A stretch of DNA of 64,000 nt, taken from Xanthostigma xanthostigma. Taxonomy: Eukaryota > Arthropoda > Insecta > Raphidioptera > Raphidiidae. The DNA lies in the NCBI GenBank assembly GCA_963575645.1, contig OY754467.1, positions 52,051,108 through 52,115,107 of the forward strand, in the 5' to 3' direction. The translations under genes were made by a program, and so were the position numbers. The stretch's first letter is position 1. Each line of letters starts with the position of its first letter. Below are positions 59,625 to 62,930 of this stretch, piece after piece. A model generated the notes under the pieces. That model saw nothing but the letters and a program-made list of their open reading frames with translations. It was not told the origin of the DNA and made no database searches.

Positions 59625-60260
59625 ATAGTATATTATCCCACAAGGACCGAAAGTTTGATATTTTTCACCTCGGGCATCATGGCGCGCAGTGCAAGGATAT
59701 GAAACTTTCGACCAGTGTGGTGTATACTATTTTTTTTTTCTTCATACCTCGATCGTAAGTACGCTTACTAAGCACATTAATTAATTAATTACTTATTAAT
59801 TACATAAAAACACAGATAAATTCCAAGCAATCAGCTTTGAGGTTATACGTAAAAACACGAATGACAGCCGTTGCGACTATTAGCTAAAATGTAATAGGGT
59901 TAAAAAATAAAGAATAGCTACTTCTTACCACAACAGTTTTATAAGCGGATGTGATACATTTCGGGAGCTATGCTCTCATCTTCAGCAAACACCCGAAATG
60001 TACATCCGCTAATAAAACTGTTGTGGTAAGATGTAACTATTCTTTATTTTTTATTTTTGTTTCAACCACAGTACTTTTAATATTTGTATGTAATAGGGTT
60101 GCTGTGGAAACGACATCTAAACAACAATTGATAGGTGATTTTTCATTACTCCCGCCCGAACGTACGTACTTCCCGCATCAGTGCGTGTAATCCCACCAAT
60201 GCGTAAATGTTAGACTTTTTTACTTACAATTGATGCCGAAAGTAGAAAAACAAATTTTTG
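59625..60260 (-). repeat. Dispersed element, copy 2, split by the 187-bp retroelement
   Basis: It is the reverse complement of 18236-18660 ('catggcgcgcagtgcaagga', 'gctgtggaaacgacatctaa'), interrupted at TGTAATAGGGTT by 59902-60088. Confidence 0.65.
59902..60088 (+). mobile_element. Short retroelement with hammerhead-like core, copy 1 (187 bp)
   Basis: TGTAATAGGGTT flanks it on both sides (59890-59901 and 60089-60100), a 12-bp duplication. It is a palindrome with arms 'cttaccacaacagttttat', followed by a tail 'caaccacagtacttttaat'. On the minus strand the loop region reads CTGAAGA, T, GAGAGC-ATA-GCTCCC, GAAA, a hammerhead-type core. Similar cores are known from Penelope-like elements. Confidence 0.6.
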
Positions 60261-61434
60261 GACGTGAAAATAGCTGATGTTAATATGGCGTCTTCAGATT
60301 ATTTCAATAATAAAAAATCCCATATGAGGAAAACGGAGATATTTTTTCGTAGAATCATTTCCTGTACAAAATTTAAATAAAATCAATTAATACAAAGGAA
60401 GTGCCTTAAAAAGTGACGGCCGCCTCTGTAATTAAATAATGTTTACAGTATTATATAGCAATATTAATGTCCCTTTCTATACGTTTGCTTTCTATGCATA
60501 TTTACATAAATATAAACAAAAAAAGCGGACTTCAATTTAGTAATAATTTCATAATAAAAATTGCCAGCTAGTGTATTTTTTATGCCATTTCATTCTTGAA
60601 AGAAAGTTTGTCAATAAATCGCTTAAGTACGTCTTTAATTTTCACTTTCTGTCTTAAATTGTTTTATTTACTTTCGTTTGTTCTTCAATTCCGGTGTTCT
60701 ATCTCGACCTGTCCATGAAATTATTTTCAACCTGTAATTTTTTCATTTTGACAGCTCGGTAACTTGACAGATTTGCATTTTTGAAAAAAAAAGTTTCCAT
60801 CGAAAGTTGTATTTTTTGCCCAGCTCAATGAAAATACGTCAGAAAAAATGGGGGTTGCTATTTAAAAAATTCGACTTACCCCCACCCGCGAGGTGGGCTG
60901 GGGAAAAGGGAGATGATTGTGCCCCCAAACGATGTCTTCCTAACAACCGTACAACTTTTTTTTTAACCACTGTTTTCAAATATCTGCCTGGCAAGATTAA
61001 AATGGATCACCCGGTATGTTATTACGCTCCGGACGAAGCCGGTTCGGACAGCTATATATAGTTTTATGTGGCATCAGGTGCATTATTGAAAACCAATAAT
61101 TATTAACGTATTATGTGCGGCATGAATAAACAATGATTAATGTTGAGGTTAATTTGTCAGGTCGTATAATCGACGAAACGGACGGACAGTAATCAGTGCG
61201 GCGACGAGATTCCGGGGCCGAGCCCCCTGCGCGCGGACTACGCGTTGACGGGAATGCGAGGAACGGGTTTCTTCACTTCCCTTATTCCTGCGTTAGTATT
61301 GACTGCACTGTTATATAGCGAAATAACTGACAACGGGCGGCGCACAGATAACGGAACTTCCGGACGTAAACGTTATACGTAATAGCGATTTTATGGTGGT
61401 CTTGAATTAGCTGTATAGTCGAAGAATGTGTACC
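60261..61434. other. No gene supported, GC-rich patch at 61190-61270
   Basis: 'gcggcgacgagattccgggg' and 'gcgcgcggactacgcgttga' stand out from AT-rich flanks, with a TCAGT initiator-like motif just upstream. A promoter or untranslated exon is possible. Confidence 0.3.
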
Positions 61435-62364
61435 TACGGTTGCAACGATACTTATATCGCTCAACCGATATTATCGATAATATAGAAACGAGAATATCGG
61501 TATATTTACATTCCCGATATGATATTATCGATATTATGGCATAAAAATATCGAAGAGTAAATGCTATTAAAGAATTTCGAATTTCACAGTTGTTTTTTGT
61601 GTGTTGGTAGAAGGTTGATAGCGTAGTGTGAGTACCTATTAGTGATGTGTCCACATGACTCTTTATTGGGAGCTGACTCCGTGCACTCCGCTCACTAAAA
61701 AGAGTCTCTCAGAGCGAGTCGTTCAAAGGAGCGACACTAGAGTTCAGACTGCAGAGGTGTGAACTGTCATCATGCATGCTCTGGAGTCACGAAGCATTGC
61801 ACAGCACAATGCACACACTCAGCTCTGAGTTCATTTTCATATGATTCTGATCTTATATTATCCGCATTTCGAATAAACTATAAAGTATAATAAAAGCTTA
61901 ACAGTAATAATGTTTATTGTTACAATATACTATCTTTGTCAACGACGTCAATGTGAATGGTTTAAGTCACTGTAAGCTTAGTACTATTACATTTATAGTG
62001 TGTCATTCAACATTAAATGACTCAGCAACGATAACTCAGTGCGTGCAAAATTCACTAGTGCCTCTGTGCCCTGCGCTGTGTGCGCTCTGCAAATGTGCGA
62101 ATGCAACAGTACAGAACAGCTCAGCACAGAGCAATGGCGCTCGGAGTGAGTCATTCACAAAAAAAAGAGCGACTCGCTCCGCTCCGAAAAAGGAGTCGTT
62201 CATTATGAACGACTCGCTCAGGAGCGACGCATCACTAGTGAGTATGCGACTGTTTGTTCAATTAATTCACAAAATATCGATATTGAAATAGTTGATCATA
62301 TCTATTATCGATATCGGTTTGGTGTCGATATAAATATCGATATTAAAATCATCTTGCATCTCTA
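61435..62364. mobile_element. hAT-like MITE rich in ATATCGATA, host of a nested insertion
   Basis: The ends TACGGTTGCAACGAT and ATCTTGCATCTCTA are roughly inverted. They are flanked by TGTGTACC (61427-61434) and TATGTACC (62365-62372), matching at 7 of 8. Both halves carry many ATCGATATT motifs. Without the insert it is about 320 bp. Confidence 0.65.
61640..62237. mobile_element. hAT-like MITE, GAGCGACTC family, copy 2, nested
   Basis: The ends are TAGTGATGTGTC and GCATCACTA. The body is the reverse complement of 20906-21455, with an extra GAGTCGTTC segment. It splits the element at 61435-62364. The flanking 8-mers match at only 5 of 8. Confidence 0.7.
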
Positions 62365-62728
62365 TATGTACCGTGTGCACTATCTATAAAATAGCTGCTT
62401 TAATTTGTATATGCGTAGGCATGAAAAGGAACGCATTACGCACTAGTGCAATAAAATAAAACAAATGGTCGTGCTATACCAATTTTATAGTAAATCACTG
62501 TTTGTCTGTTATAACCATATACCCTCTAATATCCGCGAACTGCCATTAATTAAATTTAAAAAAAAGACTTGCTCATTGAAAAGGTGTTTTATAATACAGA
62601 CGAACTATTTTTATAACTATTTTAATGTAACTATGTAAGATTTAATGTAACTATGTTTGACGTTTTAATCACCTCCCTGAGGTTTTATTTAAATAAATGC
62701 ATTATTATTATTATTATTATAGTAACGT

Positions 62729-62917
62729 AACAAAAATATTAGGAGCACTGTGGTTTGAATCTAATAAAAAATAGAGAATAGTTACTTCTTACCACAACAA
62801 GTTTATTAGTGGATGTACATTTCGAGAGCTATGCTCTCATCTTCAGCAATACACTAAACGAGTACTACATCCACTAATAAACTTGTTGTGGTAAGAAGTA
62901 ACTATTCTTTATTTTTT
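62729..62917 (-). mobile_element. Short retroelement with hammerhead-like core, copy 2 (189 bp)
   Basis: ATTATAGTAACGT flanks it on both sides (62716-62728 and 62918-62930), a 13-bp duplication. Arms and tail match copy 1 in the opposite direction. The core (CTGAAGA, T, GAGAGC-ATA-GCTCTC, GAAA) is also on the minus strand, so it is flipped relative to the tail compared with copy 1. Confidence 0.6.
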
Positions 62918-62930
62918 ATTATAGTAACGT

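Follow-up and report, generated by a model that had tools for sequence, protein, structure and literature searches.

The window analyzed in this study, a 64,000-nucleotide stretch of the genome of Xanthostigma xanthostigma (contig OY754467.1, positions 52,051,108–52,115,107), contains two copies of a 188-base unit, each composed of two inverted arms with a short tail at one outer end. Comparison of these copies with their relatives elsewhere in the genome revealed that the 188-bp unit, far from being a ribozyme element that stands on its own, consists of two partial cDNAs of the 5′ untranslated region (5′ UTR) of an autonomous Penelope-like element (PLE), joined head-to-head. As judged from the nucleotide sequences, each unit is most probably the product of bilateral target-primed reverse transcription by the PLE, primed at two adjacent start sites near the 5′ end of its mRNA. 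A preliminary description of the window had rightly taken the units for the product of a retroelement; its view of them as complete units was wrong, and they are neither self-contained nor retrozymes.

The two copies were identified at the positions first noted (Table 1). Their ends are unequal and, as had been described, each copy lies between target duplications, which are 13 bp long in both cases. The window copies served as queries in searches of the genome (623 Mb, 28 contigs), in the first of which 40 of 1,043 and 40 of 849 candidates were scored; the proportions of subfamilies and arms given below are therefore not a census. Alignment of 70 copies, oriented with the tail at the 3′ end, showed that their right part is one sequence, designated X, and that their left part is the reverse complement of X without the tail. 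The tailed arm is referred to as A and the tail-less arm as B. In copy 1 (both arms together at positions 59902–60055) the B arm is the longer-reaching one and contains a ribozyme-like core; the arms of copy 2 span positions 62762–62917.

The source of X was recognized among the results of a genome search for GIY-YIG endonuclease sequences (150 of 521 candidates scored), in which the domain was above cut-off in 149 of the 150 places. Neighboring GIY-YIG sequences less than 8 kb apart were arranged head-to-head (−+) in 21 cases, in tandem (−−) in five and tail-to-tail (+−) in none. In all 18 loci of one PLE family (L090–L107), X was found downstream of the GIY-YIG sequence, with or without the tail and with 95–100% identity, and the Penelope-like relative sharing the arms, which the preliminary description had recommended looking for, was thereby found. 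A tandem pair of PLEs shows the order open reading frame (ORF), stop codon, ...TGAACTC/AGTTTAG..., X, tail and next ORF; a copy of X follows each ORF, so that one lies between the two, and the period is 2719 bp, which is the arrangement of the pseudo-long terminal repeats (pLTRs) and tandem copies of PLEs. X1 is the A of TCAGTT, which we take to be an arthropod-type initiator, and X139 is where the next ORF has its first ATG, at most 10 nt from the end of the tail. A reverse transcriptase domain, seen at one locus (L099), shares a single frame with the endonuclease (RVT_1, 5.5e-12; GIY-YIG, 1.1e-5), as in the single ORF of a PLE. Since X lies downstream of the endonuclease and extends up to the ATG of the next ORF in a family encoding both domains, it constitutes the PLE leader, i.e. 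a 5′ UTR that begins at the initiator-like TCAGTT and ends shortly before the ORF's first ATG. The 188-bp units contain only this 5′ UTR, end before the ATG and have no ORF of their own; they are not autonomous PLEs. An N-terminal fragment from L095 yielded no protein family, and a search of solved structures with the PLE protein yielded no match.

The family is large and dispersed: the genome contains 595 + 632 = 1,227 matches to a 33-letter arm pattern with one free letter and none to the reversed control, as well as 187 + 201 exact matches to an arm-plus-tail pattern from the younger subfamily; both counts include the ends of long PLE copies. Two subfamilies were distinguished, R (older, including copy 1) and F (younger, including copy 2). 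Among the 97 copies measured (L001–L038, L046–L077, L108–L133 and L135), unit length ranged from 171 to 211 bp and the outer ends were nearly fixed: site A, at the end of the tail, was mostly located at X130–138, and site B mostly at X93–101, about 35 nt upstream of site A. These ends directly abut the target duplications, whose length peaks at 12 bp (26 copies) and 13 bp (18 copies) and whose A+T content is 81%. The expectation of a consistent long duplication was confirmed, since one of at least 9 bp was present in 73 of the 97 copies (53 of 57 younger, 20 of 40 older), compared to 5 of 959 mismatched pairings of left and right flanks. Outer ends fixed at two sites, together with duplications such as are expected from cuts staggered by about 12 bp, point to two primers on opposite strands. 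A palindromic DNA transposon, i.e. a foldback element or miniature inverted-repeat transposable element (MITE), would also have long inverted arms and target duplications, but the ends of the units differ by a tail, the length of the duplication varies around 12–13 bp, and the arms are PLE 5′ UTR, which is spliced in a sister family (see below); the probability of such an origin is practically negligible. What we take to be a B-box-like motif (GGTTTGAATC) in the tail read backwards had suggested a tRNA-derived short interspersed element, a candidate that was abandoned since the tail belongs to the PLE leader.

In the units read, one outer end carries the tail and the other does not. A query lacking the tail gave 674 candidates, of which 40 were scored (12 already in the set, 27 corresponding to L108–L133 and L135, and one cluster, L134), and one tail was present in each of these 40 places; a second tail was found in none of the 97 copies. 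Among the first 100 arm matches listed, all on contig C1, the 30 pairs of X arms less than 6 kb apart were without exception head-to-head (−+), 28 of them with 8–179 bp between the patterns. The exact tail was matched once in 18 of these pairs (whose far side, except in the copies fetched, was checked for the exact tail only), twice in none and not at all in 12, each of which proved to contain one tail when read out (L036, L124 and L135 among them). Long insertions show the same pattern. Those of family X had one tail in five of five cases (L100, L101, L102, L104, which is the same as L105, and L107), with duplications of 11–16 bp, and long head-to-head pairs of three other family types had one tail in eight of nine, with duplications of 11–13 bp and arms 99.4–100% identical over 677–764 bp; exactly one tail was thus present in 13 of 14 long insertions from four families. 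The tail, on one side only, is about 35 bp long in family X and 27–53 bp in the others (27 letters from the shared end in the pair L148/L149), and corresponds to the optional tail of PLEs; head-to-head arms, target duplication and one-sided tail together are the features of Penelope insertions with inverted pLTRs.

Head-to-head palindromes are also predicted by self-priming (snap-back), in which one reverse transcript or antisense RNA would fold back at its end and be copied, as offered for the Penelope palindromes of rotifers in the portion of PMC3846280 available. Variants shared between arms, and the snap-back hairpin of cluster L134, after which the sequence jumps to X105, are in keeping with this explanation (both are described below). 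However, self-priming gives no reason for a second arm that ends at B, 27–53 bp short of A, against the target duplication, and it is considered rather unlikely.

Inner ends were determined in 106 units (66 F and 40 R), comprising the 97 copies and nine more, which gave 212 ends. Of these, 82 were located at or before X3 (42 exactly at X1), and 56 at X33–41, within the 3′ strand of stem II of the core or immediately 3′ of it, a position at which a polymerase travelling along the RNA would encounter that strand. When an arm reaching X3 or beyond is defined as full, only the A arm was full in 25 F units and only the B arm in 29 (both in four, neither in eight), while in the R units only the B arm was full in 20 and neither in 20. 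The combination of one full and one truncated arm is a tendency, not a law. Which way the core points with respect to the tail depends on whether the A or the B cDNA is the full-length one; the flip noted in the preliminary description is real, but recombination between the arms or copying as a dimer is not needed to explain it. Self-priming gives no reason why either arm can be the full one in the young subfamily.

The 66 F units show 50 distinct inner junctions. Since only the outer ends are fixed, the nearly equal length of the window copies does not indicate a complete unit, contrary to what had been argued. Within single arms, three B arms (L031, L032 and L035) jump over the core, from X52–54 to X14–17, and that of L030 jumps from X42 to about X12. 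Variants common to both arms of a unit exceed the number obtained by permutation (3 vs. a mean of 0.17; 13 vs. a mean of 1.8), which is consistent with one RNA or one source locus. The palindromic unit might alternatively be a non-autonomous element, whose own transcript would serve as the template and whose junctions would vary through central deletions of an unstable palindrome. The high copy number of the arm, the few junctions that recur with different duplications and the existence of two subfamilies of different divergence agree with this proposal. The diversity of junctions among the young units does not, nor do the internal jumps within one arm, which are not deletions of the center, or the long PLE insertions with their like outer ends and one-tail pattern; moreover, the spliced leader described below points to a PLE transcript as the source. 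We regard a non-autonomous element as decidedly unlikely.

A second PLE family, Y, produces like units from spliced leader RNA. Its arm pattern is present in 806 + 846 exact copies and, among the first 100 matches listed, 22 of 23 neighbors less than 6 kb apart were head-to-head (−+), the remaining one being ++ at 4.5 kb. All 11 ORF-less Y units fetched have one tail, and a duplication of at least 10 bp was detected by script in nine of the 11, although that of L167 takes in arm-end letters and that of L173 is a TAT repeat. Long Y loci keep an intron with GTATGT and AG borders (in 12 of 12 that include that end, representing seven insertions; in five of the loci its length was measured and was 95 or 100 bp), which separates the leader ...AACTTGCATTGAG from GCCCTGATGATG or GTCCTGATGATG. 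This intron has been lost exactly in all five Y units that clearly cross the junction (L165, L166, L168, L169 and L175); the six others do not cross it, or the crossing is unclear. The exactly joined leader indicates that the template, at least for those five units, was spliced sense RNA, which does not fit the antisense template of self-priming.

Bilateral target-primed reverse transcription would proceed as follows. The PLE endonuclease would cut both target strands about 12 bp apart, and each target 3′ end would prime reverse transcription of the sense mRNA, one at site A and one at site B; since each site is used once per insertion, perhaps one RNA serves for both cDNAs. Both cDNAs would extend toward the 5′ end of the mRNA, and the 3′ end of the nearly full one would join or anneal within the other, sometimes via a few matching bases, a form of cross-priming suggested by the usual occurrence of one full and one truncated arm. 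Each cDNA would then become the second strand of the other, with loss of the overhanging piece. Long PLE copies may arise by the same route from read-through RNA with a downstream 5′ UTR. In its strictest form, the proposal describes PLE insertion as an obligately asymmetric two-primer reaction on one mRNA, in which A and B are each used exactly once and cDNAs of the same sense prime one another; the chances that this form is correct are about even. If it is, PLEs have an integration scheme unlike that of long interspersed nuclear elements (LINEs) or long terminal repeat (LTR) elements, and the mini-units are frozen short products of mature, spliced mRNA. In the twin priming of LINE-1, an inverted portion likewise results from priming on the RNA by a second target end; the inverted and direct portions of such a copy represent different RNA segments, whereas both arms of the units described here represent nearly the same segment.

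Several observations weigh against this interpretation. A duplication of at least 9 bp is absent from 24 of the 97 X copies, and the ninth long pair mentioned above gave no common end. The role of X1 as the transcription start is presumed, and 24 of the 212 inner ends extend beyond it (X−5 to X0), either by chance or owing to an upstream start. Besides the four units with two full arms, there are 28 of 106 with none (20 of the 28 in the older subfamily). Some junctions recur beside different duplications (one is common to six units), so that some copying of the unit itself is conceivable, and the joints of the F units are mixed, with at least two matching bases in 26 of 66 and filler in 25. 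The majority of the variants (unions of 26 and 90) are not common to both arms, the arms could also have been matched by later gene conversion, and the use of one RNA instead of two is likewise presumed. Finally, cluster L134 (positions 110–531) contains three partial X copies in the same direction and one opposite arm within a single 14-bp target duplication; the partial copies are connected by snap-back hairpins and then restarts at X105 (twice), which shows that snap-back and template jumps occur too.

The core of X is composed of the letters originally reported, i.e. CTGAAGA, an extra T, GAGAGC/GCTCYC and GAAA. No Rfam hammerhead was found at the gathering threshold in the window, or at permissive E-values in the region, in 20 PLE loci and in 16 loci; the matches obtained instead were to microRNA and other models, far below gathering scores. 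The Rfam model MIR841, of a plant microRNA, scores high, although below gathering, inside a head-to-head PLE insertion (L095:2580–2780 and L096:478–678), and this match is probably an artefact of the long palindrome. A scan for the core itself, defined as CTGANGA followed by no more than one extra letter, a paired stem II and GAA, covered 32 PLE loci not belonging to family X and gave 23 matches (1 expected from letter shuffles, 1 per 56 kb). These matches lie in 21 of the loci; the other 11, which include the L136/L140 family type, had none. In five other PLE families the core lies downstream of the endonuclease, with stems II that differ, yet are paired (GAAAA/TTTTC, GGCCA/TGGCC, GCTA/TAGC, GCCT/AGGC and GTTGT/ACAAC). 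The same core with a changed yet paired stem II across families argues that it is hammerhead-like and common to PLE families, in the form of a minimal type I motif, in which CUGANGA and GAAA enclose a stem II kept paired by compensatory changes. The compensatory changes that the preliminary description had proposed to look for are thus present, but the Rfam match is not.

The canonical hammerhead core has no extra letter between CUGANGA and stem II. Here, one extra T or A precedes stem II in every family tabulated (L078–L089 and L136–L155), as it does in X. Beside the core of X, stem I is weak (2 pairs, then a mismatch), and stem II of subfamily R contains an A–C mismatch. In the fold predicted for the F leader (shuffle z −2.2), the C of the core is paired; in that for the R leader (shuffle z −1.1), CUGAAGA is unpaired and stem III is absent. 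According to the part of the review PMC6155905 available, PLE hammerheads are minimal forms without helix III. A type III hammerhead layout based on the long arms was dropped, X starting at X1 with the core inside the UTR.

The predicted ribozyme core is carried along as part of the 5′ UTR without marking the insertions, since none of the 212 arm ends of family X (106 units) is located at the predicted cleavage site (X49–51); hammerhead cleavage was accordingly rejected as the cause of truncated arm ends in this family. In family Y, one of 11 units (L173) joins at this site, both arms beginning exactly at GTT^GGCC, and a few end nearby, as judged by eye in a set that is too small and confounded by a GGCC palindrome; the L173 joint possibly reflects a cleaved template and possibly the mere palindrome. 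An animal retrozyme would arise from RNA cut at the hammerhead, circularized and reverse transcribed. As far as the excerpts of PMC7229834 describe them, animal non-LTR retrozymes resemble the units in being short, non-coding and AT-rich, with a type I hammerhead (here a hammerhead-like core) and longer duplications. They form tandem multimers, from dimers upward, set by hammerhead cleavage, and circular RNA, whereas the units are inverted pairs whose full arms end at the mRNA start, upstream of the predicted cleavage site, with no family X end at that site and a lone Y joint explainable by its palindrome. A retrozyme origin is thus very improbable.

The DNA surrounding the two units contains other repeats. 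A stretch between inverted TAGTGATG/CATCACTA ends (61628–62244), with direct GTGAGTA repeats outside (61628–61634 and 62238–62244), looks like a small DNA element, presumably of hAT type. Clusters of palindromic words of the ATATCGATAT type are found between the two units (61440–61540 and 62270–62350). A repeat, CGTACGTACTTCCCGCATCAGTGCGTGTAATCCCACCAATGCG, was recognized by eye both in the flank of copy 1 (60155–60235) and in that of the distant cluster L134 (L134:1–110), so that the PLE products at these two places each adjoin a copy of one further element.

Table 1. Components of the two PLE-derived units identified in the window.
Feature	Position	Strand	Remarks
Copy 1, left target duplication ATGTAATAGGGTT	59889–59901		13 bp
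Copy 1, B arm	59902–59992	−	antisense-oriented cDNA of PLE 5′ UTR, start site B to about X7
Copy 1, hammerhead-like core CTGAAGA-T-GAGAGC-ATA-GCTCCC-GAAA	59959–59985	−	one A–C mismatch in stem II
Copy 1, A arm body	59993–60055	+	truncated at about X34
Copy 1, tail	60056–60087	+	interval between start sites B and A; compare the available part of PMC11167929
Copy 1, right target duplication	60088–60100		13 bp
Copy 2, left target duplication ATTATAGTAACGT	62716–62728		13 bp; longer if ambiguous T/A arm-end letters are counted
Copy 2, tail (A side)	62729–62761	−	
Copy 2, A arm body	62762–62859	−	extends to X2 (presumed mRNA run-off end); contains ribozyme-like core
Copy 2, hammerhead-like core CTGAAGA-T-GAGAGC-ATA-GCTCTC-GAAA	62820–62846	−	
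Copy 2, filler at joint of arms	62860–62865		6 nt
Copy 2, B arm	62866–62917	+	truncated at X44
Copy 2, right target duplication	62918–62930		13 bp

The units are numerous and short enough to be read whole, and the start sites of both cDNAs, their inner ends and their joints are retained in them. With such units, the question of how PLEs complete their insertion becomes a set of countable predictions (one tail, usually one full arm, a spliced leader), which may be checked in any PLE-bearing genome. The units also explain a class of palindromic short repeats that might be filed as MITEs or, given that Rfam matches below threshold were to microRNA models, as microRNA hairpins.

The architecture itself, inverted pLTRs with a one-sided tail, is already known for PLEs. 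The open-access literature searched yielded no report of numerous ORF-less units, of so strict a count of one tail or of a spliced template, which does not prove their absence; the units are not addressed in the accessible part of a Drosophila virilis survey (PMC12910113, 2026). In the part of PMC3846280 available, the endonuclease-containing Penelope elements of Adineta vaga have inverted pLTRs, duplications of 8–10 bp where given and a 31-bp tail at one pLTR. The insertions described here share with them the head-to-head pLTRs, target duplications, one-sided tail and palindromes at the inverted junction. They differ in that A. vaga has an ORF or captured DNA between the pLTRs, or solo pLTRs, while many units here are ORF-less. 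The same text favors self-priming on an antisense template and does not describe numerous palindromic units lacking an ORF, a strict one-tail count or spliced leaders.

The closest parallel to the two start sites is the Poseidon PLE of Anolis carolinensis (PAc). As reported in the accessible sections of PMC11167929, its protein cuts and extends both strands and starts reverse transcription at two adjacent internal sites, the interval between which constitutes the tail. Its hammerhead, like the hammerhead-like core of X. xanthostigma, is near the 5′ end, and the targets of both are AT-rich; the PAc ribozyme is not needed for insertion in vitro. The main PAc start lies 111–118 into the ORF, whereas the tail of the present units stops shortly before the ATG, and PAc shows no difference in start site between the strands, whereas the insertions read here use each site once.

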